NCBI GenBank assembly: GCA_903834625.1 | Contig: CAILJQ010000101.1 | Coordinates: forward strand, 1 to 51,330 | Origin: an uncultured Bacteroidota bacterium | GTDB lineage: Bacteria > Bacteroidota > Bacteroidia > UKL13-3 | Length of the DNA: 51,330 nt | Direction: 5' to 3' | Shown: piece after piece, positions 4,079 to 35,375 of the stretch | Layout of the letters: every line of letters begins with the position of its first letter | Numbering within the stretch: position 1 is the first letter of the stretch | Translations under genes and position numbers: made by a program | Notes under the pieces: model-generated | What the model was told of the DNA's origin: nothing | Databases searched by the model: none | What the model saw: only the letters and a program-made list of their open reading frames with translations

Positions 4079-6985
4079 TTATAATCCCAACTCTTTTCTT
4101 AAGAAAACAGCGGTATGACTTTCTTTAGATAAGCACACTTTTTCTGGTGTACCTTCAGCAATAACTGAACCGCCATATTTACCACCTTCTGGACCAATAT
4201 CTATAATATAATCTGCCACCTTCACCATGTCTAAATTGTGTTCAATCACCAAAACTGTATTGCCTTTGTCAACCAATTTTTGGAGCACTTCTAGCAACAC
4301 TTTTACATCCTCAAAATGCAAACCTGTGGTAGGTTCATCCAGAATATAGAAGGTATTTCCTGTATCGCGTTTACTCAATTCTGTGGCTAATTTTACCCTT
4401 TGTGCCTCACCTCCACTTAAGGTAGTGCTTTGCTGACCCAAAGTAATGTATCCCAATCCTACCTCGTTTAAAGCAACAATCTTGCGGAGTATATGTGGGG
4501 TATTTTCAAAAAATTGAACAGCTTCTTCAACGGGCATATTCAATACATCATTGATGCTTTTTCCCTTGAATCGAACTTCTAATGTTTCGCGGTTGTACCT
4601 TTTACCCCCACAATTTTCGCAGGTAACATAAACATCGGGTAAAAAATTCATTTCAATGCTGCGCATTCCTGCACCCTGGCAAGTTTCGCACCTGCCTCCC
4701 TTTACATTAAATGAAAACCTGCCCGGTTTATATCCCCTGATTTTAGATTCTGGTAAATTGGCAAACAAGGTTCTGATGTCACTAAATACCTCAACATAAG
4801 TAGCAGGATTGCTTCTTGGTGTACGTCCAATGGGCGATTGGTCAATATCAATAACTTTGTCAATATGTTTTAAACCAACTATCTCCTTGTAAGTGAGCGG
4901 CTTTTGATGCGAACCATAAAAATGTTGTCGAAGAATGGGATATAAGGTTTCATTGATAAGCGATGACTTGCCACTTCCACTTACTCCTGTTACACAAATA
5001 AATGTTCCAAGTGGCATTGAAATGTTAACATTCTTCAGATTGTTCCCTGTAGCTCCTTTCAGCTCAAGAAAATGTCCGTTTCCCTTACGTCGTTTTTTAG
5101 GAATTTCTATTTGCTTGCTCCCATTTAAATATTGTGCAGTAATAGAATTTGAATTGAGTATCTGTTGCATGGTTCCTTGTGCAGCAATATGACCGCCATG
5201 CACACCTGCACCAAAACCAATATCTAAAATAAAATCACTCTCCTCCATCATGTCCTTATCGTGTTCAACTACAATCACACTGTTTCCTAAATCTCTTAAT
5301 GATTTTAATGATTGGATGAGACGGTTATTATCTCTTTGGTGTAAACCTATACTTGGCTCATCTAAGATGTACAATACACCCACCAATTGTGATCCAATTT
5401 GTGTGGCCAACCTAATGCGTTGAGCTTCTCCACCACTTAAGGTTTTTGCAGGAGAGTTTAGGGTAAGGTAATCTATTCCAACTCCACGCAAGAATTCTAT
5501 TCTACTTCTTATTTCTTTTAATATTTCTGAGGCAATAATCAATTGTTTGGCATCTAACAAGCTTTCTACCTTGGCAAACCAATCGCCCAAGGCACCAATT
5601 TCCATAGCAGCTAAATGTGCTATGTTCATTTCTCCAATTTTATAATGTAAGGCTTCCTTTTTGAGCCTAGCGCCTTTACATTCCGGACAAGGCTGGATTT
5701 CCATAAATTCTTCTGCCCATTTGTAAATGGCATCGTAACTTTTTTCATGGTAATGGCGCGTAATAATATGTACTAGCCCTTCCCAATTACTATTATAATT
5801 TTGAGTATAACCACTACTAAATTGATAAGGCACAACAAGTGGTTCGTCTGAACCATATAAGATCACCTGCATGGCCTCTTTTGAAATTTTCTCAATAGGG
5901 TCGGCAAATGAAAACTTATAGCGTTTTCCTAATTCTCTCAATTGAAGAAAAGTCCAATTCTCTCTTGCTTCACCCAATGGTGCCAAACCCCCTTTATTGA
6001 TGCTTAATTTAGGGTCGGGTATCATGGTTTTTTCATCAATAATACTCTTTACTCCTAAGCCATCACAAACAGTACAAGCGCCATATGGAGAGTTAAAAGA
6101 AAAGGTATTTGGTTGTGGTTCATCATAACTAATTCCACTGGCAGGGTCCATCAAAAACTTGCTAAAATGGTGAACCTTATCTGTAGAATTATCTAGTAAA
6201 ACCATGGTGCCTTTACCCATCCTTAAAGCACTTTTCACACTTTCAGAAATTCTAAATCTTGCTCCTTTTGATGATTCAATTCTATCAATGAGTACCTCAA
6301 TATCATGAATCTTATATCGGTCGGCTTGCATTTTTGGGGTTACATCAACCAACACGCCATCTAATCTCACCTTGGTATACCCTTGTTTTCTTACTTGCTC
6401 AAACAACTCGCGGTAATGGCCTTTCCTACCTTTTACCAATGGGGCTAAAATGGATATTTTTTTATTCTCAAATTTTTCAATGATGGTGCTTATGATTTGT
6501 TCTTCAGTAAATTTCACCATCTTTTCGCCCGTCACAAAACTATAAGCATCGGATGCCCTAGCATACAATAACCTTAAAAAATCATATATCTCAGTAATGG
6601 TACCAACTGTAGATCTTGGGTTCTTATTAACTGTTTTTTGTTCAATTGCAATAACTGGGGAAAGCCCATTTATCTTGTCTACATCTGGGCGCTCCATGTT
6701 ACCAATAAACTGCCTAGCATAAGCAGAAAAACTCTCCATATACCTTCTTTGCCCTTCGGCAAAAATGGTATCAAAAGCCAAACTAGATTTGCCGCTTCCA
6801 CTCAACCCGGTAATGGTTACCAACTTATTCCTTGGAATGGTTACATCTATATTTTTAAGGTTATGTTCCCTTGCGCCCAATACTTCAATTACTTCAACCT
6901 GTAATTCAACTTCACTGTTCAAGGCTGGTGTAACTTTTTCAGCAACATTACCCTTTTTAATTTTCTTTTCTTTCGTCATTTCCAT
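4079..6985 (-). CDS. uvrA: Excinuclease ABC subunit A
   Basis: 968 residues, a full-length UvrA that finds bulky DNA lesions and loads UvrB in nucleotide excision repair. There are two ABC ATPase modules: Walker A GLSGSGKSS at 60-68 and GVSGSGKSS at 667-675, with signatures LSGGEAQR near 516 and again near 857. The C-terminal zinc module is intact (C766, C769, C789, C792). C433 and C436 form another CxxC. The first zinc module is incomplete: C304 and C307 are present, but where E. coli has the first CxxC this protein reads FLMDPASG (277-284). The N-terminus has a short Lys-rich extension; ATG at 6979 is an alternative start. It follows the ElyC-like gene with a 23-base gap. Confidence 0.98.
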   Translation of the reverse strand: MEMTKEKKIKKGNVAEKVTPALNSEVELQVEVIEVLGAREHNLKNIDVTIPRNKLVTITGLSGSGKSSLAFDTIFAEGQRRYMESFSAYARQFIGNMERPDVDKINGLSPVIAIEQKTVNKNPRSTVGTITEIYDFLRLLYARASDAYSFVTGEKMVKFTEEQIISTIIEKFENKKISILAPLVKGRKGHYRELFEQVRKQGYTKVRLDGVLVDVTPKMQADRYKIHDIEVLIDRIESSKGARFRISESVKSALRMGKGTMVLLDNSTDKVHHFSKFLMDPASGISYDEPQPNTFSFNSPYGACTVCDGLGVKSIIDEKTMIPDPKLSINKGGLAPLGEARENWTFLQLRELGKRYKFSFADPIEKISKEAMQVILYGSDEPLVVPYQFSSGYTQNYNSNWEGLVHIITRHYHEKSYDAIYKWAEEFMEIQPCPECKGARLKKEALHYKIGEMNIAHLAAMEIGALGDWFAKVESLLDAKQLIIASEILKEIRSRIEFLRGVGIDYLTLNSPAKTLSGGEAQRIRLATQIGSQLVGVLYILDEPSIGLHQRDNNRLIQSLKSLRDLGNSVIVVEHDKDMMEESDFILDIGFGAGVHGGHIAAQGTMQQILNSNSITAQYLNGSKQIEIPKKRRKGNGHFLELKGATGNNLKNVNISMPLGTFICVTGVSGSGKSSLINETLYPILRQHFYGSHQKPLTYKEIVGLKHIDKVIDIDQSPIGRTPRSNPATYVEVFSDIRTLFANLPESKIRGYKPGRFSFNVKGGRCETCQGAGMRSIEMNFLPDVYVTCENCGGKRYNRETLEVRFKGKSINDVLNMPVEEAVQFFENTPHILRKIVALNEVGLGYITLGQQSTTLSGGEAQRVKLATELSKRDTGNTFYILDEPTTGLHFEDVKVLLEVLQKLVDKGNTVLVIEHNLDMVKVADYIIDIGPEGGKYGGSVIAEGTPEKVCLSKESHTAVFLRKELGL

Positions 6986-11622: not shown

Positions 11623-12789
11623 ATGGATAACACGAACAACAATATAGAATTGAGTGTGGTAATGCCATGCTTAAATGAAGCTGAAACAATTGAAATCTGC
11701 ATCCGCAAAGCATTTTCATGGATGAAAGCTAATAACGTCATGGGTGAAGTGGTGATTGGTGACAATGGAAGTACAGATGGTTCACAAAAATTAGCTGAAA
11801 ACCTAGGAGCCAGAGTTATTGCCATTCCCAGAAAAGGATATGGAAGCGCCCTTATGGGAGCCATTGAAGCCGCAAGAGGCAAATATGTCATCATGGGTGA
11901 TAGCGATGATAGTTATGATTTTGAAAACCTAACCTTGTTTGTGGAAGAATTGCGCAAAGGGAAAGACTTGGTAATGGGAAATAGGTTCAAGGGTGGAATC
12001 AAAGAAGGTGCCATGCCTTTCCTCCATAGATACCTTGGCAACCCTGTTTTGTCGTTCATTGGTCGCCTGTTTTTTAAATGCCCTGTTGGCGATTTTCATT
12101 GCGGTTTACGTGGGTTCAGACAAGATATTGTTAGCTTACTTGATTTAAAAACTACGGGAATGGAGTTTGCCAGTGAAATGGTAGTGAAAGCCACTATTTT
12201 TAAACTCAATATTACCGAAGTACCCACCACACTCTCTAAAGATGGTAGAACCAGACCGCCACATTTAAGAACTTGGCGAGACGGTTGGCGCCATTTGCGC
12301 TTTTTGTTAATTTACAGTCCAAGATGGCTGTTCCTATATCCAGGTTTGTTCTTAATGTTACTCGGATTTATCATGAGCATTCTCATTGTTCAAGGTCCCG
12401 TTGACGTTTTTAACCGAGTATACTTTGATACGAACACTTTACTGTATGCCGGAGCCTTCATTATTGTAGGATACCAAGCTGTTAGTTTTGGTGTATTTAC
12501 CAGAGCCTATGCAGTTCAAGCAGGCTTCTTGCCTGTAAAAGATTCGCTTACAAAAGCCTTCAATATTGTTTCATTAGAAGCCGGACTTATAGCCGGACTC
12601 CTCATTCTGTTAGCGGGCCTAAGTGGAACCTTTTACTCCCTCTATGTTTGGGAAGAAAGTAATTTTGGCCAATTAGATTATTCCAAAATTCTGAGGATAG
12701 TTATCCCAAGTGTTATCGCTATCATATTAGGGTTGCAAACGGTGTTGTCGAGCTTCCTACTAAGCGTGTTATCTGTAAATAAAAAATAG
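11623..12789 (+). CDS. GT2 glycosyltransferase, polyprenyl-phosphate sugar synthase type
   Basis: 388 residues. The GT-A domain (about 8-230) has LNEAETI near 17, GDNGSTDGS at 46-54 and the metal-binding DSD at 93-95 in MGDSDDSYDF. The later pattern GDFHCGLRGFRQD and EFASEMVVKA is typical of dolichol/undecaprenyl-phosphate sugar synthases. The C-terminus carries about four membrane helices (from about 238). It probably moves a sugar from a nucleotide donor to polyprenyl phosphate at the inner face of the membrane, supplying the GT-C enzyme two genes downstream; that pathway is inference. The next gene starts 10 bases later. Confidence 0.9.
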   Translation: MDNTNNNIELSVVMPCLNEAETIEICIRKAFSWMKANNVMGEVVIGDNGSTDGSQKLAENLGARVIAIPRKGYGSALMGAIEAARGKYVIMGDSDDSYDFENLTLFVEELRKGKDLVMGNRFKGGIKEGAMPFLHRYLGNPVLSFIGRLFFKCPVGDFHCGLRGFRQDIVSLLDLKTTGMEFASEMVVKATIFKLNITEVPTTLSKDGRTRPPHLRTWRDGWRHLRFLLIYSPRWLFLYPGLFLMLLGFIMSILIVQGPVDVFNRVYFDTNTLLYAGAFIIVGYQAVSFGVFTRAYAVQAGFLPVKDSLTKAFNIVSLEAGLIAGLLILLAGLSGTFYSLYVWEESNFGQLDYSKILRIVIPSVIAIILGLQTVLSSFLLSVLSVNKK

Positions 12790-12799
12790 ACCTGAACTC

Positions 12800-13348
12800 A
12801 TGAAAGCTTTAGATATTTACCTTCAAAATGTGCGCATTAGTAAGGCAAAGAAATATATCCGTAAAAATGACGCTGTTTTAGATATTGGTAGTGTTGATGG
12901 TGTGATGTTTGATAAGTGGAAGGGTTATATTTCAAAGGGCTTAGGGGTTGATCCAACATTGAAGGAGAAAATAGTTAGCGAAAATTATATCCTTTATCCG
13001 GGTTACTTCCCTGAGGCTTGCCCCAAAGGAGAAACCTTTGATGCAATTACTCTTTTGGCCGTTTTAGAACATATACCTACCAACCAACAAAAGCAATTAG
13101 CGGAGGGCTGTTTTCAATATTTGAAAAAAGGCGGTAGGTTAATTATCACCGTGCCCTCTCCTCAAGTTGATCATATTTTAGAAATTTTGTTAAAGCTAGG
13201 ATTAATTGAAGGCATGAGCCTGGAAGAACATTACGGATACAAACCTGAACATACAGAACAAATCTTTTGCTCACCTATGTTTACACTTCTCAAAAAAGAA
13301 AAGTTTCAATTCGGATTAAATAACCTCTTTGTTTTCGAAAGATTATAA
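12800..13348 (+). CDS. Class I SAM-dependent methyltransferase
   Basis: 182 residues with a Methyltransf_11-like fold. Motif I is the slightly degenerate VLDIGSVDG (27-35), an acidic D51 follows GLGV, and FDAITLLAVLEHI (about 80-92) and GGRLIITVPSP (about 111-121) mark the core strands. The substrate is unknown; its place between a polyprenyl-sugar synthase and a GT-C transferase suggests methylation of a glycan or lipid intermediate. It is short for the family but complete, and in one operon with its neighbours. Confidence 0.8.
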   Translation: MKALDIYLQNVRISKAKKYIRKNDAVLDIGSVDGVMFDKWKGYISKGLGVDPTLKEKIVSENYILYPGYFPEACPKGETFDAITLLAVLEHIPTNQQKQLAEGCFQYLKKGGRLIITVPSPQVDHILEILLKLGLIEGMSLEEHYGYKPEHTEQIFCSPMFTLLKKEKFQFGLNNLFVFERL

Positions 13349-13370: not shown

Positions 13371-16301
13371 ATGGAAGCACGAAATTTATCGGATAACAGA
13401 ATCAGTGTGGCGGTTAATGCCACTCAAGTTGAACCAGCTTTTTATGAAATGTTGCATACATTTCTTCAAAAAACGAAGGTCGATTTAGAGTTTATTCTTT
13501 TAACCAAAGAAAATTCCCTTCCAAAAAATATGGAAGAATGGGTTCAAAAAGGAAAGATAAAAAATGTTTCTTATTCGGCTGAACCTTTAAACCTGCAGTT
13601 CTCAAAAATGCTTGAGCAAGTAAGTGGAAGTGTGAGTGTTATTCAATACCACCTATCACAACCCATTGGGAACATTATTCAAAGTATTCAAAATAACAAA
13701 AAAGCAATCAAGGAAGATGCCCTTTTTGTAGGTCGTCAATTGAGCCAAAATAAAGGCAATAAATCCGCCGATTCTTTTTCAAATAAAATGGCCAATAGCG
13801 CCTTAAGATTGTTTTCTTCTATTGATTTAAGAGACGGGAACAGTGGCGTAATTTGTGGCAAAACAGCCCTACTTCAACAATGGCTAGCAAATGAATTGGC
13901 CACTGGAAATAGCTATTTAGAAACACTTAATTTAGCAAGTAATAAAAAGCTCAACATCACTGAATTCAGCCTTAGCACAGATAAAGCTCTTTCGTTTTCT
14001 TTTATAAAATCTTTGAGTGCTGTCATAACACTTCGCATGCAATATTTTGTGAAAGATGCATTGTGGCAATTTAAGAACAGACCACAGGAATGGTCGGATG
14101 GAAATCACCCAATTTACCGCATGGCCTTTTTTGTGGTGACCTTAATCGCTCTAATAGGAATGCCTAAATTAAGCCAAGATTTTGGCAGTACTTGGGATGA
14201 AAAAGCGCATAATGATTACTCTCAAATAGCCTATAATTACTTAACAACTTTTGGAGGAGATACTGCAGCTTTGGCTGAACCAAAGAATAGCGGAGAATAC
14301 ATCAGACAAGCCTATAGATTCTATGGAGAGCAAATGAACACTGTAGCGGCTTTTGCTTATAATTGGTTCGGCACAGGTGTATTTGAAACACGCCACCTTA
14401 TCAACTCTTTTTATGGATTTATTGGCTTGTTATTTACTTCTTTAATTGCCTTTGAATTGGCAGGTTGGAGGGCTGCATTTTTGGCTTCTATTTTTATGTT
14501 TTTAAATCCGGGTTGGCTCGGACATAGCATGAATAATCCCACGGATATTCCATTTGCCACCGGATTTGCCTTTGCAGGGTATTATATTGTTAAAGTAATG
14601 AAATCATTACCTAAGCCAAGGTTTAGAGATTTGTTTTGGTTGGCATTTGGTATTGGTATAGGTATTGCCTCAAGGGTGGGAGCCTTCTTAATTGTAGCAT
14701 ATCTTGGCCTATTCCTTGCCAGCAACTGGTTGTATAAAGTTAAAAACAAAGAGAAGAATTTAGGGAAACTCATTTGGCCTTATGCCAAAATATTTTTGTT
14801 GGTAGCTGCATTGGGTTATGTATTCGGAATTTTGTTATGGCCTTATGCATTAGATAACCCATTAAAACATCCTTTCCAAGCTTTTGCCAAAGCTGCTGAA
14901 AATGCATTTTATACCAATAACGTAGAACTTTTTGAAGGGAAAAGAATGTACATGATTACTTCAGCACCTTGGTACTATGTATTCAAATTCCTCGGAATGG
15001 GAAATCCATTGTACCTTGTTGTTGGCGTGGTTATTGGCGTCCTTTTGTTTTTACCTATTGGCAAAAAAATTGGTTCGGGATTTTTCCTCATGTTGGTATT
15101 CATGATATTCTTTCCCATTCTTTATGCAGAGTATAGTAACTTAAATTATTATAATGGCTGGAGACACTACTTGTTCATTCTACCTTTTGCTATTCCTCTT
15201 GCTGCAGTAACATGGGATTATTTCCTTAGCCTTAAAAAGCCAATTGCATTAACAGCAATGATTGTATTGGGTGCCCTTTATGCAAAACCAGCTATTTGGA
15301 TTGCGCAAAACCATCCCAATGAATATGTTTATTTTAATGAATTGGTAGGAGGCATCAAAGGAGCTTATGGCGATTATGAAACCGATTATTACAGCAATTC
15401 TTGCAGAGAAGCTGCCGAGTGGATTGCTAAACAACATCCTAAAGATACATTGGTCATTGGAATCAATAACGAAACAACCACCGCAGCTTATTGGGCACAT
15501 CAAATAAATCCAAGATTGAATTTTGTTTGGACAAGAGAAACGGAAGAACAAAAACTTGCATGGGATTATTTGATACTTACAACACGTACTTTTTCTAAAA
15601 ACGAATTAGAAAATGGCTCATTCCCTCCAAAAGGAACAGTTTATACAGTAGAAGCTGATGGAGTGCCACTTGCTGCTGTAGTGAAAAGAGAAAATTATAG
15701 CATGCCAAGAGGTTATGTCTCCTTAGACAAACAAGACTTTGATTCATCTATCTATTACTTTGAAGATGCTGTTAGATATGCACCTAATGACGAAGAAACT
15801 TGGCGCATGTTAGGCTTTGCATTAATCAATAAAGCTCGCTTAGACAGTGCAGAGAAAATGCTTCAAAAGGCCATTGAAATTTATCCTGAAAACTTCACTG
15901 CATATAGCAATTTAGGTTTGGTATATTTTAATAAAAAAGAGTTTAAAAAAGCCACAGAGGTCTTCAAGAAAAGTACTGATTATAAAGAGAACGTAACAGA
16001 AAGCTATTATTATTCTGCACTCGCTTATCTCAATTTAGGTGATTACCAAAATGCCATTCAACAATTAGAAATGGCCGTAAAGCACAATGCTAGTATTCCT
16101 GAAGTTTATTACTATTTAGCCAAGTCGTATGCCGCAACAGGTAGCTACCAAAAGGCTGCAGACAATTACCAAATTGCTTTAGGCATGAACCAAAACTTCA
16201 TGCAAGCCTGGGGAGAATTGGCCGATGTATTTACAAAACTTAACCAACCAGAATACGCTAAGCAGTGTATTGAAAGGTATAAAGCATTGGGTGGGAACTA
16301 A
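13371..16301 (+). CDS. Fusion protein: dead GT2-like domain, GT-C membrane domain, TPR domain
   Basis: 976 residues in three parts. Residues about 10-230 look like a decayed DPM1-type GT2: the usual DxD with its SHP/SQP tail is replaced by IQYHLSQP (Q92-Y93-H94), and a later DLRDGNSGVICG segment matches the acceptor region of that family. Residues about 248-690 hold roughly ten membrane helices with FGSTWDEKAH (D276-E277) after the first helix, the usual place of the GT-C catalytic acid, so this part is probably a GT39-like transferase using polyprenyl-linked sugars outside the membrane. Residues about 780-976 are five to six TPRs. It is the last gene of the operon. Confidence 0.8.
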   Translation: MEARNLSDNRISVAVNATQVEPAFYEMLHTFLQKTKVDLEFILLTKENSLPKNMEEWVQKGKIKNVSYSAEPLNLQFSKMLEQVSGSVSVIQYHLSQPIGNIIQSIQNNKKAIKEDALFVGRQLSQNKGNKSADSFSNKMANSALRLFSSIDLRDGNSGVICGKTALLQQWLANELATGNSYLETLNLASNKKLNITEFSLSTDKALSFSFIKSLSAVITLRMQYFVKDALWQFKNRPQEWSDGNHPIYRMAFFVVTLIALIGMPKLSQDFGSTWDEKAHNDYSQIAYNYLTTFGGDTAALAEPKNSGEYIRQAYRFYGEQMNTVAAFAYNWFGTGVFETRHLINSFYGFIGLLFTSLIAFELAGWRAAFLASIFMFLNPGWLGHSMNNPTDIPFATGFAFAGYYIVKVMKSLPKPRFRDLFWLAFGIGIGIASRVGAFLIVAYLGLFLASNWLYKVKNKEKNLGKLIWPYAKIFLLVAALGYVFGILLWPYALDNPLKHPFQAFAKAAENAFYTNNVELFEGKRMYMITSAPWYYVFKFLGMGNPLYLVVGVVIGVLLFLPIGKKIGSGFFLMLVFMIFFPILYAEYSNLNYYNGWRHYLFILPFAIPLAAVTWDYFLSLKKPIALTAMIVLGALYAKPAIWIAQNHPNEYVYFNELVGGIKGAYGDYETDYYSNSCREAAEWIAKQHPKDTLVIGINNETTTAAYWAHQINPRLNFVWTRETEEQKLAWDYLILTTRTFSKNELENGSFPPKGTVYTVEADGVPLAAVVKRENYSMPRGYVSLDKQDFDSSIYYFEDAVRYAPNDEETWRMLGFALINKARLDSAEKMLQKAIEIYPENFTAYSNLGLVYFNKKEFKKATEVFKKSTDYKENVTESYYYSALAYLNLGDYQNAIQQLEMAVKHNASIPEVYYYLAKSYAATGSYQKAADNYQIALGMNQNFMQAWGELADVFTKLNQPEYAKQCIERYKALGGN

Positions 16302-16467: not shown

Positions 16468-16490
16468 ATCAACTTAGATTCGTAGTTGAT
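16468..16490 (+). promoter_or_regulatory. Inverted repeat enclosing a -7 box at the Fic-like gene start
   Basis: ATCAACT (16468-16474) and AGTTGAT (16484-16490) are perfect 7-bp arms. The nine bases between them contain TAGATTCG (16475-16482), which fits the -7 pattern TAnnTTYG. The right arm runs into the ATG at 16489. No TTG is seen at the -33 position, so the promoter may be weak or need an activator. The layout is that expected for an autoregulatory operator, and the product carries a DNA-binding domain. Confidence 0.45.
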
Positions 16491-17661
16491 GATACTGATT
16501 AACAAATACGAACCTGTCATTTCAATTGACGAAGCCTTCTTGCAGTGCGTGCAAGATCAGGTTGAACTCTGTAAAATATATGAGTTTATTGACCTGCCAG
16601 ATCATATTAGAAATATTGAAAAACTAAACAGCGCCATTTTAAGGAATTACTATGCCAACGCACTTGATAATAACCTCCTTGATATAAAATCTGTAAAGTA
16701 CCTCATCAATAAAAATCTTAGAGCCTCCAATATGGCCGAAAGGGCCGTTGAACAATATCAAAAAGCAGAACAATTCATAGACGAGCAACTACACGAACAA
16801 CTGAGTATTCCCCTTTTATACCAAATAGAGAAAATAATCATAGAAGACCTCTACCAGAATACAGGTGAAGTAAATTTATTCTCTTCACAAATTGCTAGAA
16901 TCCCAGAGAAGTTGAACATGGAGTCGGAATTAGAACTCGAAAGCTTGTTCGATTTCTTAAATTCAGATTCAGAATTTCATCCAATTATTCAATCGTGGAT
17001 GATTCATTTCAGAATTATGTCGCTTCCTTTGTTTAGTGAAGCCAAATCTAAAATTGCTGGACTCATGCAATTGTTTTGGCTTAGAAAGCACAAGATGGAT
17101 ATGTTCGGTTTAATGAGTTTAGAACACGAAATTTACATTAATAAGCAAGCATACGACCAAATCATATTCAACGCCATCCAAGGCGAAGAAAACGCCCTAA
17201 ATGAACAAATAACCTTTGGCTTGCAACTGCAACAGGTACAACTCGGACGATTAAAAGACCTTTTCAGAAACTACTTCAGACAACAAGTAGATTTTGAAAA
17301 ATTAAATCCACGTCAAAAAAATATCATGAACTATGTCTTCGAAAGAGGATATAAGTTAAAAGAAATTGATGACAGCATCCTTAACAAAAGGCAAAAGCTC
17401 ATCATGTATATTATTCAGCATAGAGGATTTATATCAACCAAGGAGTTGGTAAATGAGTTTGATTGTAACCGTAAAACTATTCAGCGTGATTTCCAGTTGT
17501 TACTCGACTTAGGCCTGGTAAAATCAATTGGTGCAGGAGCTGGTCTAAGGTATTGCATTAACCTCCAAGAAAAAGGAAATCCGCTATTGGAAAAATACCA
17601 AGCGGATTTCGTTGAACAAAATTCTTCAGAAATATCTCCTGAAATTCAAGAAGGATTATAA
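16489..17661 (+). CDS. Degenerate Fic-fold protein with C-terminal winged helix
   Basis: 390 residues from the ATG at 16489 (a TTG precedes it directly). Residues about 40-240 follow the Fic fold: an N-terminal helical region with NMAERAVEQYQKAEQFI, a GEVNLFSSQIARIP segment where Fic proteins have GxYR, and HPIIQSWMIHF at the position of the helix before the active site. The active-site loop HPFxDGNGRxxR is replaced by SLPLFSEAKSKIAG (about 178-191), so AMPylation activity is not expected. Residues about 272-358 hold a winged helix of DeoR/HTH type (STKELVNEFDCNRKTIQRDF). Two similar LNxRQKxIMxYxxxRG segments (about 272 and 299) suggest a partial duplication. Probably a transcription regulator with a dead Fic sensor domain. 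Confidence 0.7.
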   Translation: MILINKYEPVISIDEAFLQCVQDQVELCKIYEFIDLPDHIRNIEKLNSAILRNYYANALDNNLLDIKSVKYLINKNLRASNMAERAVEQYQKAEQFIDEQLHEQLSIPLLYQIEKIIIEDLYQNTGEVNLFSSQIARIPEKLNMESELELESLFDFLNSDSEFHPIIQSWMIHFRIMSLPLFSEAKSKIAGLMQLFWLRKHKMDMFGLMSLEHEIYINKQAYDQIIFNAIQGEENALNEQITFGLQLQQVQLGRLKDLFRNYFRQQVDFEKLNPRQKNIMNYVFERGYKLKEIDDSILNKRQKLIMYIIQHRGFISTKELVNEFDCNRKTIQRDFQLLLDLGLVKSIGAGAGLRYCINLQEKGNPLLEKYQADFVEQNSSEISPEIQEGL

Positions 17662-33029: not shown

Positions 33030-35375
33030 ATGAAGAAACTAGCTGTCATTGCCTTCTTAATATGGAATTATTCTCAATCTTTTGGACAAATTCATAGATC
33101 AAATTGCCCTGTGAAAGAGGAAGAGTTTACTTATACCCTTTCCGACCAATCAACCATCACATTAAGGGTATGGGGTTCAGAAATGGTTCAATATTTCGAA
33201 ACCAAAGAAGGGTATACCTTACTAAAAAATGATGCAGGATACTTTGAATATGCCGTTCAAGATAGTGAAGGAAATTTAATTAGCTCAGGTGTTCCATTAC
33301 AACGTACGTTACCCGCATCCCTGCAATTGGTTCAGCCTAACTTAAAATACAGTAGCCGCCAAATAGAGTTTATTACACAAAATTTCTACGGTTTGAGCCA
33401 AAACTTAAATAAAAAAGCTGGTGGGAAACCGTTTCCTTCAAAGGGAAAAAGAAATGTATTAACGATATTAATCCAATACCCCGATTTGCCCGCCACCATA
33501 GCTAAATCTAATTTTGATTCAATGATGGTGAAGCAAAACTACAATGGAACTGGTTCCTTTAGAGATTATTATTTGAAAGCATCCTATAACCAACTTGAGT
33601 TAAATACAGATGTTTTTGGATGGTATACAGCAAGCTCTGGATATATGAATTATGGAAAATCAAACCCAAATTATAATTACAATGTAGGAACGCTAATTAA
33701 GAGAGCTATTCTAGCAGCCGACTCAGCAGGAGTTGACTTTTCTAAATACGATAACGATAGCGATGGGTATGTAGATGGAATTATCATTGTACACGCGGGA
33801 ATTGGCGCAGAGGAGCAAAGTGCGCCTAGCGCAAATAATTTTATTTGGTCGCATAGATACAATTTAACCTACTCTGTGGGAGCCGTTGCCTTAGATGGCG
33901 TTATGATTGATGCCTATGGTATTTTCCCAGAAAAAAGATACAATGGTGGTTCCTATTCTCAGGTGGGCATAGGTGTGCTTAGTCATGAATTTGGACATTT
34001 ATTAGACTTACCAGACTTATACTCTACCCAAAGCAAAGGAGAAGGTGCAGGTAATTTTTCCAATATGGCTGGCGGACCTTGGCTTAACAATGAAAAAACT
34101 CCCTGTTTAATGGATGCTTGGTCGAGAATGGCGCTTGGTTGGCTAAACCCAACCCTTATTAATGCCGCTGGTACCTACACCATAACAGATGGTTTAAGCG
34201 ATAGCAATTTTGCCTATAGAATCAATACCAACTTACCAAACGAATTTTTCTTGATAGAAAACAGGCAGAAAAAAGGCTTTGATGCGTATTTACCCTCCAA
34301 GGGAATGGCTGTTTGGCATATCAATACCAACAAAGCCAAATTATTATCGTTCGCCAGTAACAATGTAAATAACGATACAAGTGCTTATGGTGTTGGACTC
34401 TTACAAGCAGATGGAAGAAGAGATTTAGAAAAAGGAAATAATAGAGGTGATGCAGGTGATTTATTTCCAGGAACCACAAACAACAGAAGTATTGGTAATA
34501 ACACAAGTCCAAATACCTTATTACATTATAAAATTGGTGGCATAAAACAACTTTCAAATATTGTCATAAACAATATTACCAGTTATACCGATAGTTCAGT
34601 TTCTTTCACTATTGGAAACAAACCAACCGCTGCCTTTGATTTGTTTCCAGCCAAGGGCTGTGCACCTTTATCTGTGTACCATCAAAACATTTCGAGTTTC
34701 GCACAATCATTTAAATGGAAGTTTCATGATGGCACTTTTTCAACAGATAAAGATGTTGTTAAAACATTTAACATTGCCGGTTCATACCCAGTTACTTTAT
34801 ATGTATTAGACTCAACTGGCACTGCCATAGATTCAAACCTACAAACCATTCAGGTAGATGCTTCGCCTGAAGCAGCCTATGAATTAGTAAGGTCAGACAG
34901 CAATACCTTCCTCTTAACAAATAATTCTAAGGGTAGTTTATATGTGGTATGGCGTTTCGGTTCGAACCAAACCTCTACACAACCTAATCCAACTTATGTA
35001 ATTAACGGAGGCCAAGATGTACCCTTTATGTTAATTGCCTATTCACAAAACCAATGCACAGATACTGCCTATGGAATAATGAGTTTTTGGCCATTGGCAC
35101 AGCAAAATGTGTCTCAGCTCAAAAATGAAATTTCAGTATATCCCAATCCTTTTGAACAGAAATTTGACCTTTCTTTTTCTCTTGTTCAAGAACAACCTTT
35201 AACCTTTACCATCACTGATTTACAAGGCAAAGAAATTTGGAAACAAGAATCTACCTTGGTAAAATCTGGTTCATCAACACTTTCATTTGAAACGGGAAAG
35301 ATGGCACATGGTGTTTATTTATTAAAAATTGAAGGAGCTGATTTTAATAAAATATTAAGGGTTAACGCTCGTTAG
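33030..35375 (+). CDS. M6 family metalloprotease with PKD domain and T9SS sorting signal
   Basis: 781 residues. A signal peptide (about 1-19, ending SFGQ) and a propeptide precede the M6 domain. The zinc motif is HEFGH at 319-323, followed by LLDLPDLYS. A PKD domain (about 530-610) with WKFHDGTFS and PVTLYVLD comes next, and the C-terminus from ISVYPNPFEQKFDLSF onward is a type A T9SS sorting domain. It should be a secreted or surface-bound protease that breaks down external protein. The next gene, comF, starts 21 bases later. Confidence 0.92.
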   Translation: MKKLAVIAFLIWNYSQSFGQIHRSNCPVKEEEFTYTLSDQSTITLRVWGSEMVQYFETKEGYTLLKNDAGYFEYAVQDSEGNLISSGVPLQRTLPASLQLVQPNLKYSSRQIEFITQNFYGLSQNLNKKAGGKPFPSKGKRNVLTILIQYPDLPATIAKSNFDSMMVKQNYNGTGSFRDYYLKASYNQLELNTDVFGWYTASSGYMNYGKSNPNYNYNVGTLIKRAILAADSAGVDFSKYDNDSDGYVDGIIIVHAGIGAEEQSAPSANNFIWSHRYNLTYSVGAVALDGVMIDAYGIFPEKRYNGGSYSQVGIGVLSHEFGHLLDLPDLYSTQSKGEGAGNFSNMAGGPWLNNEKTPCLMDAWSRMALGWLNPTLINAAGTYTITDGLSDSNFAYRINTNLPNEFFLIENRQKKGFDAYLPSKGMAVWHINTNKAKLLSFASNNVNNDTSAYGVGLLQADGRRDLEKGNNRGDAGDLFPGTTNNRSIGNNTSPNTLLHYKIGGIKQLSNIVINNITSYTDSSVSFTIGNKPTAAFDLFPAKGCAPLSVYHQNISSFAQSFKWKFHDGTFSTDKDVVKTFNIAGSYPVTLYVLDSTGTAIDSNLQTIQVDASPEAAYELVRSDSNTFLLTNNSKGSLYVVWRFGSNQTSTQPNPTYVINGGQDVPFMLIAYSQNQCTDTAYGIMSFWPLAQQNVSQLKNEISVYPNPFEQKFDLSFSLVQEQPLTFTITDLQGKEIWKQESTLVKSGSSTLSFETGKMAHGVYLLKIEGADFNKILRVNAR

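Follow-up and report, generated by a model that had tools for sequence, protein, structure and literature searches.

What does a glycosyltransferase-like domain contribute to a membrane glycosyltransferase when its own active site has been lost? This question is raised by one gene in a stretch of 51,330 nucleotides from an uncultured Bacteroidota bacterium (GTDB lineage Bacteria; Bacteroidota; Bacteroidia; UKL13-3), contig CAILJQ010000101.1 of assembly GCA_903834625.1, positions 1 to 51,330, here called the window. A single, intact open frame at 13371-16301 of the plus strand encodes a protein of 976 aa, in which a domain derived from glycosyltransferase family 2 (GT2), a membrane domain of the GT-C type and tetratricopeptide repeats (TPRs) follow one another. 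A preliminary description had proposed this three-part order and considered the first domain dead, a pseudo-GT2 that might hold an active synthase close to the GT-C part. We favour, with some reserve, a GT-C transferase that uses a polyprenyl-phosphate sugar and carries a non-catalytic, GT2-derived cytoplasmic cap, of which the juxtamembrane helix would matter most. The parts of the protein are:

13371..14078, plus strand: pseudo-GT2 domain of GT-A fold, residues 1-236, with the former DxD loop at about 92-98 and an interface (juxtamembrane) helix at 211-236, the second part of which (221-236) is conserved (AlphaFold2 (AF2) model, Foldseek, VIA, hhalign to GT2, Pfam on orthologues, absence of DxD, entropy)
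14109..15311, plus strand: GT-C membrane domain, residues 247-647, with about 11 transmembrane (TM) helices and an invariant loop-1 Asp276 (AF2, VIA, conservation)
15312..15698, plus strand: alpha/beta domain, residues ~648-776, predicted to be extracytoplasmic (AF2 model; side from the odd TM count)
15699..16298, plus strand: TPR array, residues 777-976, predicted to be extracytoplasmic (Pfam TPR_2, E 1.2e-22; VIA to CTPR and OGT TPRs)

Orthologues sharing the same N-terminal domain were found in 22 of 40 other genomes with 45-73% identity to the window protein; one of the 22, at locus L013, is cut by the contig end.

The N-terminal domain and its former active site

The AF2 model of residues 1-245, calculated from an alignment of 41 orthologues (pLDDT 87.8, pTM 0.85), showed the alternating strands and helices of a GT-A fold and a long final helix at 211-236. 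The GT-A span predicted with good confidence comprised residues 7-236. With Foldseek the top PDB match of this model was the dolichyl-phosphate mannose synthase (DPMS) 5mlz (E 3.7e-9), and the remainder of the best 20 were mainly entries of ArnC, WrtF and GtrB. Structure comparison with VIA ranked three DPMS entries first, the best being 9ep0 (Z 14.1, rmsd 4.4, 203 aligned), followed by ArnC and GtrB. The outline of a DPM1-like GT2, earlier seen in residues 1-240, was borne out by the prediction: in the model these residues do fold as GT-A, and the nearest structures are DPMS, ArnC and GtrB.

The same kinship was detected in profile comparison, where hhalign aligned 188 columns with a profile of 11 real GT2s (probability 92.8, E 3.9e-7). 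Pfam reported no family at E 5 for window residues 1-235, and Glycos_transf_2 matched none of the 23 rows scanned. When eight orthologous domains were compared singly with PF00535, L102 and L105 passed (33.4 bits, cut-off 23.3), L103 and L104 matched GT2 below the cut-off and four had no match. By eye, L102 and L105 have kept a DNASTD stretch as in real GT2s, and this nucleotide-site stretch (DNGSTD-like) is partial in L103 and L104. A weak GtrB-like match was obtained for L102 with PHROGs (E 0.0005). A sequence search of the PDB with the N-terminal profile (A2) returned one glycosyltransferase, 3bcv (E 0.016), and after it seven unrelated chains with E from 0.1 to 2.5. NCBIfam gave no GT2 match for the window N-terminus; its weak hit to NGTferase (E 0.0017; 17 bits, where the cut-off is 1000) and a still weaker kinase match were rejected as noise. 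Judged by profile comparison and predicted fold, the N-terminal domain descends from a GT2.

The DxD motif had been described as replaced by QYH within IQYHLSQP. The loss was upheld; in the register the methods differ by one, QYH occupying residues 92-94 and the profile alignment setting the GT2 DSD on Y93-H94-L95. No D-x-D was present within window residues 84-104 in any of the 41 aligned orthologues. This alignment (A4) held 41 of 46 sequences; L113 and L127 were truncated and L094, L114 and L122 omitted by choice, and the latter three had no D-x-D either. No homologue examined has retained the DxD where it would be expected. Acidic residues are frequent there (D or E at 93 in 16/41, D at 94 in 9/41). 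The loop 92-98 had the highest mean entropy among 19 segments (2.80 bits), and the most constrained segments were residues 34-40 (1.29 bits), helix 221-236 (1.75) and strand 7-16 (1.77). Near-invariant in the home family, i.e. the family of the window genome, are K34, K36, G86, K111, N142, D155, T165 and F226. Most of these are not known donor-site residues of GT2; the exception is D155 at the place of a DxxSG-like motif, kept in 39/41. As far as its motifs tell, the domain is catalytically dead.

It could be argued that an unusual, metal-independent transferase activity or a ligand-binding activity has been retained. The conserved D155 and the acidic residues at 93 or 94 in other orthologues would fit with this, as would the residual activity of single DxD mutants of DPMS given in the accessible part of PMC5526996. 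Against this, conservation is lowest in the donor-site loop, the DxD is missing in 41/41, and by eye the DNGSTD-like stretch occurs just in L102 and L105, and partly in L103 and L104. We regard retained activity as highly improbable.

The ratio of non-synonymous to synonymous substitution rates (dN/dS) was 0.064-0.237 for the pseudo-GT2 and 0.014-0.082 for the GT-C part, each with a value in 18 of 20 pairs. The ratio of the pseudo-GT2 was the higher one in all 16 pairs with both values. We concluded that this domain is under purifying selection, but less constrained than the GT-C enzyme it is fused to.

The membrane domain and the C-terminal parts

The full-length AF2 model (pLDDT 85.7, pTM 0.80) showed a membrane domain, and VIA with residues ~241-670 matched it to Pmt4 (9i5l; Z 25.0, rmsd 3.5, 381 aligned), ArnT (5f15; Z 24.8, rmsd 3.9, 345 aligned) and AglB (Z 25.7, rmsd 6.9). 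The assignment as GT-C type is supported by this model and these matches. For its "well-placed D-E pair" only the first residue held: position 276 is D in all 45 covering sequences (of 46), and 277 is E in 37/45. Since S or A stands there in the other eight, E277 was dropped as an essential residue. In a wider set of 47 GT-C domains, which includes the copies L151 and L178, the D was found in 47/47 and a following E in 42/47.

Pfam PMT and PMT_2 did not match window residues 237-778, and locus L024 matched weakly (E 0.007). With the GT-C profile (A3) the PDB sequence search yielded nothing useful. A paralogue consisting of the GT-C part only (G022:C67, L083:2018-4319; 515 aa) matched PMT_2 with E 2e-8; the next gene downstream of it is a separate GT2.

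We counted about 11 TM helices by our own reading of the model. With this number the alpha/beta domain and the TPRs would lie outside the cytoplasm, a topology that we infer from the predicted structure. The TPR domain at the C-terminus is as previously described (TPR_2 match, see above). The alpha/beta domain between GT-C and TPRs (about 648-775) is an additional part that the preliminary description did not contain.

Neighbouring genes, distribution and the last helix

The intact GT2 reported two genes upstream is present, with a DSD motif and one methyltransferase gene in between:

11623..12789, plus strand: intact GT2, polyprenyl-phosphate-sugar synthase-like, with DSD and, by eye, C-terminal hydrophobic segments (Pfam PF00535, E 1.7e-26)
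12800..13348, plus strand: S-adenosylmethionine-dependent methyltransferase between both glycosyltransferase genes (Pfam Methyltransf_23, E 2.9e-9)

Against an AglJ-like profile the GT2 scored 126.8 bits, under the cut-off of 325.

To describe the linkage, 45 home-family loci were considered, L127 and L129 being from one genome. Four of them at or near a contig end (L096, L099, L113, L127) were set aside. A DxD-containing GT2 is encoded 6-2013 bases upstream, in the same orientation, in 38 of the 41 assessable loci; this count joins two scans, since a narrow DxD pattern missed six loci and the first scan missed L092. Two of the 38, L103 and L104, lack the usual GT2 and have a different one (225 aa, 26% identical to that of the window) and a methyltransferase 34% identical to the window's (neighbour region 4702-5951). 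The usual GT2 is also missing in L194-L196, from three genomes that belong to a different genus; here the three-part gene is followed on the same strand by yet another GT2. Its length is 244 aa in L195 (Pfam E 2e-14) and in L196 (5e-14), L194 is partly masked but has a similar start, and in L195 the motif reads DAG. Among the three loci without the upstream gene, the orthologue was found on another contig in G023 (L097) and further along the same contig in G060 (L123). In G078 (UKL13-3, L130), a closed chromosome that does encode the three-part protein, this GT2 was not detected at E 1e-20.

In 64 home-family genomes both proteins occurred in 42, the GT-C protein only in 7, the GT2 only in 1 and neither in 14 (Fisher p 3e-8, uncorrected for relatedness). 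In the GT2-only genome, G059, the N-terminal part was seen in a short frame near the contig start. Outside the home family an adjacent same-strand GT2 was detected in 1 of 16 three-part loci (L177); two of the 16 had less than 1 kb upstream. The suggested functional coupling to a GT2 is supported in the home family by linkage and co-occurrence; elsewhere a GT2 is rarely a neighbour of the gene.

Several other genes were observed at these positions. In some clades the methyltransferase slot is empty or holds a different methyltransferase-like gene, as in L118:5313-5912 and L120:5375-5980 (199-201 aa by open reading frame (ORF), by eye). At L110:9009-10967, and equivalently in L111, L112, L115, L126 and L127, the three-part gene is followed by one for a protein of 651-652 aa with a GT2-like start. 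A FAD-dependent amine-oxidoreductase-like gene (Pfam Amino_oxidase, E 1e-21 and 2e-25) adjoins the three-part gene in L124:4538-5968 and L130:4306-5763, both distant relatives, and could act in the same glycan pathway. In the window a 391-aa protein with a helix-turn-helix domain is encoded after the three-part gene (16486-17661). Within the genus it keeps this position at 17 of the remaining 18 loci, L002-L019, of which L013 is cut by the contig end. Further away, at 33030-35375, there is an M6-type peptidase with a PKD domain and a type IX secretion sorting tail.

The pseudo-GT profile matched 45 and the GT-C profile 49 of the 64 home-family genomes. The domains of L194-L196, three more home-family genomes, matched the pseudo-GT profile with E < 1e-20 and the GT2 profile weakly (E 0.002-0.025). 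A GT-C relative was found in 82 of 395 genomes sampled from the class at E 1e-8, and in a draw of 395 genomes from the phylum 8 had a match at E 1e-20, each of them again a member of this class. In the class sample, 18 proteins from other families reach at least 900 aa, and every one was inspected: two lacked the N-terminal domain and 16 had it, with 183-279 residues ahead of the GT-C part. By family code, these 16 with the same three-part order come from six other families of Bacteroidia. A search within these 16 N-termini matched 12 to the pseudo-GT profile at E < 1e-3. An ancestral form in which the GT2 joined to GT-C is still intact was also looked for among them, and the GT2 profile matched 0/16 (best E 0.15). 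A D-x-D is present in two (L167, placed by profile alignment, and L176, by eye), but it coincides with the D155 motif and not with the old DxD site.

A quick tree was built from 46 GT-C domains, with L178 excluded as a copy of L151. On it the N-terminal domain requires four changes, for which a single gain followed by three losses is the simplest account. A further alignment (A5) held 31 of 46 sequences. We infer a single fusion of a GT2 to a GT-C + TPR ancestor within the Bacteroidia. Shorter N-terminal parts were found in L174, with 191 residues before the GT-C part, and in eight nested two-part rows with 29-66 residues. Where the N-terminal domain was lost, about three times on the tree, the GT-C and TPR parts were retained, and in some relatives little more than one short helix seems to be left of the GT-A domain.

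Before the first TM helix we recognised a motif consisting of an aromatic residue, an aromatic residue or Leu, three residues, Pro or Ala, and a hydrophobic residue. It was present in 8/8 nested proteins without the GT-A body, where shuffled sequences lead one to expect 0.44 of 8, and also in 38/41 home-family domains and 12/16 other-family three-part proteins. It was found in 0/3 basal two-part proteins and in 0/6 GT-C-only entries, which come from five loci, L185_28 being an extra ORF. A profile of the home-family last helix had been tried and was rejected as too narrow; the looser motif, read by eye, was used instead.

Function and comparison with known systems

In the account that we favour, a separate GT2 of the DPMS/ArnC/GtrB type probably charges the polyprenyl-phosphate carrier; in the home family this would usually be the GT2 encoded two genes upstream. 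The GT-C part would take the sugar off the carrier and transfer it outside the cytoplasm, to an acceptor that the C-terminal TPRs may recruit or present. The N-terminal 236 residues, presumably from a GT2 fused once to a GT-C + TPR ancestor within the Bacteroidia, have lost their donor-binding motifs; they would make no glycosidic bonds and act as a cytoplasmic cap. Their last helix, the former interface helix, would be the portion on which the GT-C domain depends. In the accessible part of PMC5526996 the interface helices of DPMS are described as strictly required and its TM domain as expendable. Since those helices are required there, the inherited helix may have been taken up here as a juxtamembrane structure of the GT-C domain. 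By this analogy it is plausible that the helix joined the GT-C part and that the body stayed on as a stabiliser or docking face.

A number of observations weigh against the favoured account. The helix motif was defined post hoc, after the sequences had been read, and with Pro only it occurs in 7/8 nested and 11/16 other-family proteins and in just 7/41 home-family domains; the window itself has Ala at this position. With the home-family helix profile L152 reached 11.0 bits and L153 6.6, the remaining nested two-part proteins scored lower, and the best of 660 shuffles gave 8.9 bits, so only L152 exceeds all shuffles. The first part of the last helix, residues 211-220, is variable (2.53 bits). 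Regarding the history, the tree is without bootstraps and its two-part row L182 is long-branched; 4 of the 16 distant N-termini have no pseudo-GT profile match and are homologous by position and length only. The pairs of the dN/dS comparison are not independent of one another, and for several of them dS was above 1 or saturated.

It is possible that the synthase is docked by the cap. The pseudo-GT2 would pair with the active GT2, as the GT2 domains in GtrB oligomers may, and the sugar would be handed to the GT-C part in one complex. The upstream GT2 in 38/41 loci and the co-occurrence over the 64 genomes agree with this, and so do the different GT2 neighbours in two other groups (L103/L104; L194-L196), the GtrB tetramer and octamer volumes named in PDB titles, and the new conserved residues K34, K36, D38, K110 and K111. 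On the other hand, the neighbouring GT2 switched type while the pseudo-GT2 stayed, and G078 has the protein without a match to this GT2. Because the GT-A body was apparently lost repeatedly (about three times) and a neighbouring GT2 is rare outside the family (1/16), docking is unlikely as the main role. The cap is preferred over docking since it needs fewer assumptions to account for those losses and for a domain without adjacent GT2 in other families.

Alternatively, the fused GT2 may be vestigial, its function lost and the domain decaying with only the helix under selection. The missing active site, the dN/dS above that of the GT-C part in 16/16 pairs and the shortened N-terminal parts (191 residues in L174, 29-66 in the eight nested rows) point in this direction. 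But dN/dS is still 0.06-0.24, the fold was predicted with high confidence, and K34, K36, G86, K111, N142, D155, T165 and F226 are near-invariant in the home family; we consider this explanation unlikely. That a dead polyprenyl-phosphate-sugar synthase was captured by fusion and became a regulatory or docking subunit of the GT-C enzyme, coupling donor synthesis to donor use, is a tentative proposal with a modest chance of being right.

If the regulatory or docking proposal were true, this would be a prokaryotic pseudoenzyme controlling a glycosyltransferase. To our knowledge, little is known of how lipid-linked sugars are handed over by the enzymes of their synthesis to the enzymes that consume them. 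The family resembles a natural series, from a separate active GT2 over a fused GT2 with partial motifs (L102, L105) to the dead domain, then a shortened domain (L174) and finally the helix only (L151-L154, L163, L166, L179, L145). Such a series gives a hint as to what the GT-C enzyme retains of the domain, and the coupling becomes testable by deletion. Among the literature matches listed (titles and abstracts, with subscription journals and preprints outside the scope) there was no description of a conserved dead GT2 fused ahead of GT-C + TPR; the folds and the GT-C + TPR plan are already known.

DPMS and GtrB/ArnC share with the N-terminal domain the GT-A fold, a DxxSG-like motif and a helix before the membrane part; DPMS has its interface helices where the window protein has its pre-membrane helix. 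Unlike these enzymes, the N-terminal domain has no DxD and is fused to a GT-C domain. The pseudo-glycosyltransferases VldE and ValL resemble the window protein in name alone. According to the accessible parts of PMC3441724 and PMC12041759 they are active enzymes making non-glycosidic bonds, and the window domain is a different kind of thing. With PMT/ArnT-type enzymes the protein has in common the GT-C fold (Z 24-25 over ~345-381 residues) and the loop-1 Asp; unlike them it has a pseudo-GT2 in front and an alpha/beta domain and TPRs behind, and it lacks a Pfam PMT match. The animal O-mannosyltransferases TMTC1-4 are described in the accessible part of PMC7801869 as having 11 TM helices, a cytoplasmic N-terminus and lumenal C-terminal TPRs, and prokaryotic GT-C + TPR homologues are noted there. 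The order GT-C then TPR and the 11-TM plan, which for the window protein follows from our helix count, are alike in both; a GT2-derived N-terminal domain is present in the window protein and does not appear in that part of the TMTC description. The loop-1 motif is DD in the TMTCs (PMC7801869, same part) and mostly DE in the window family, and the two are likened by architecture, not by sequence.

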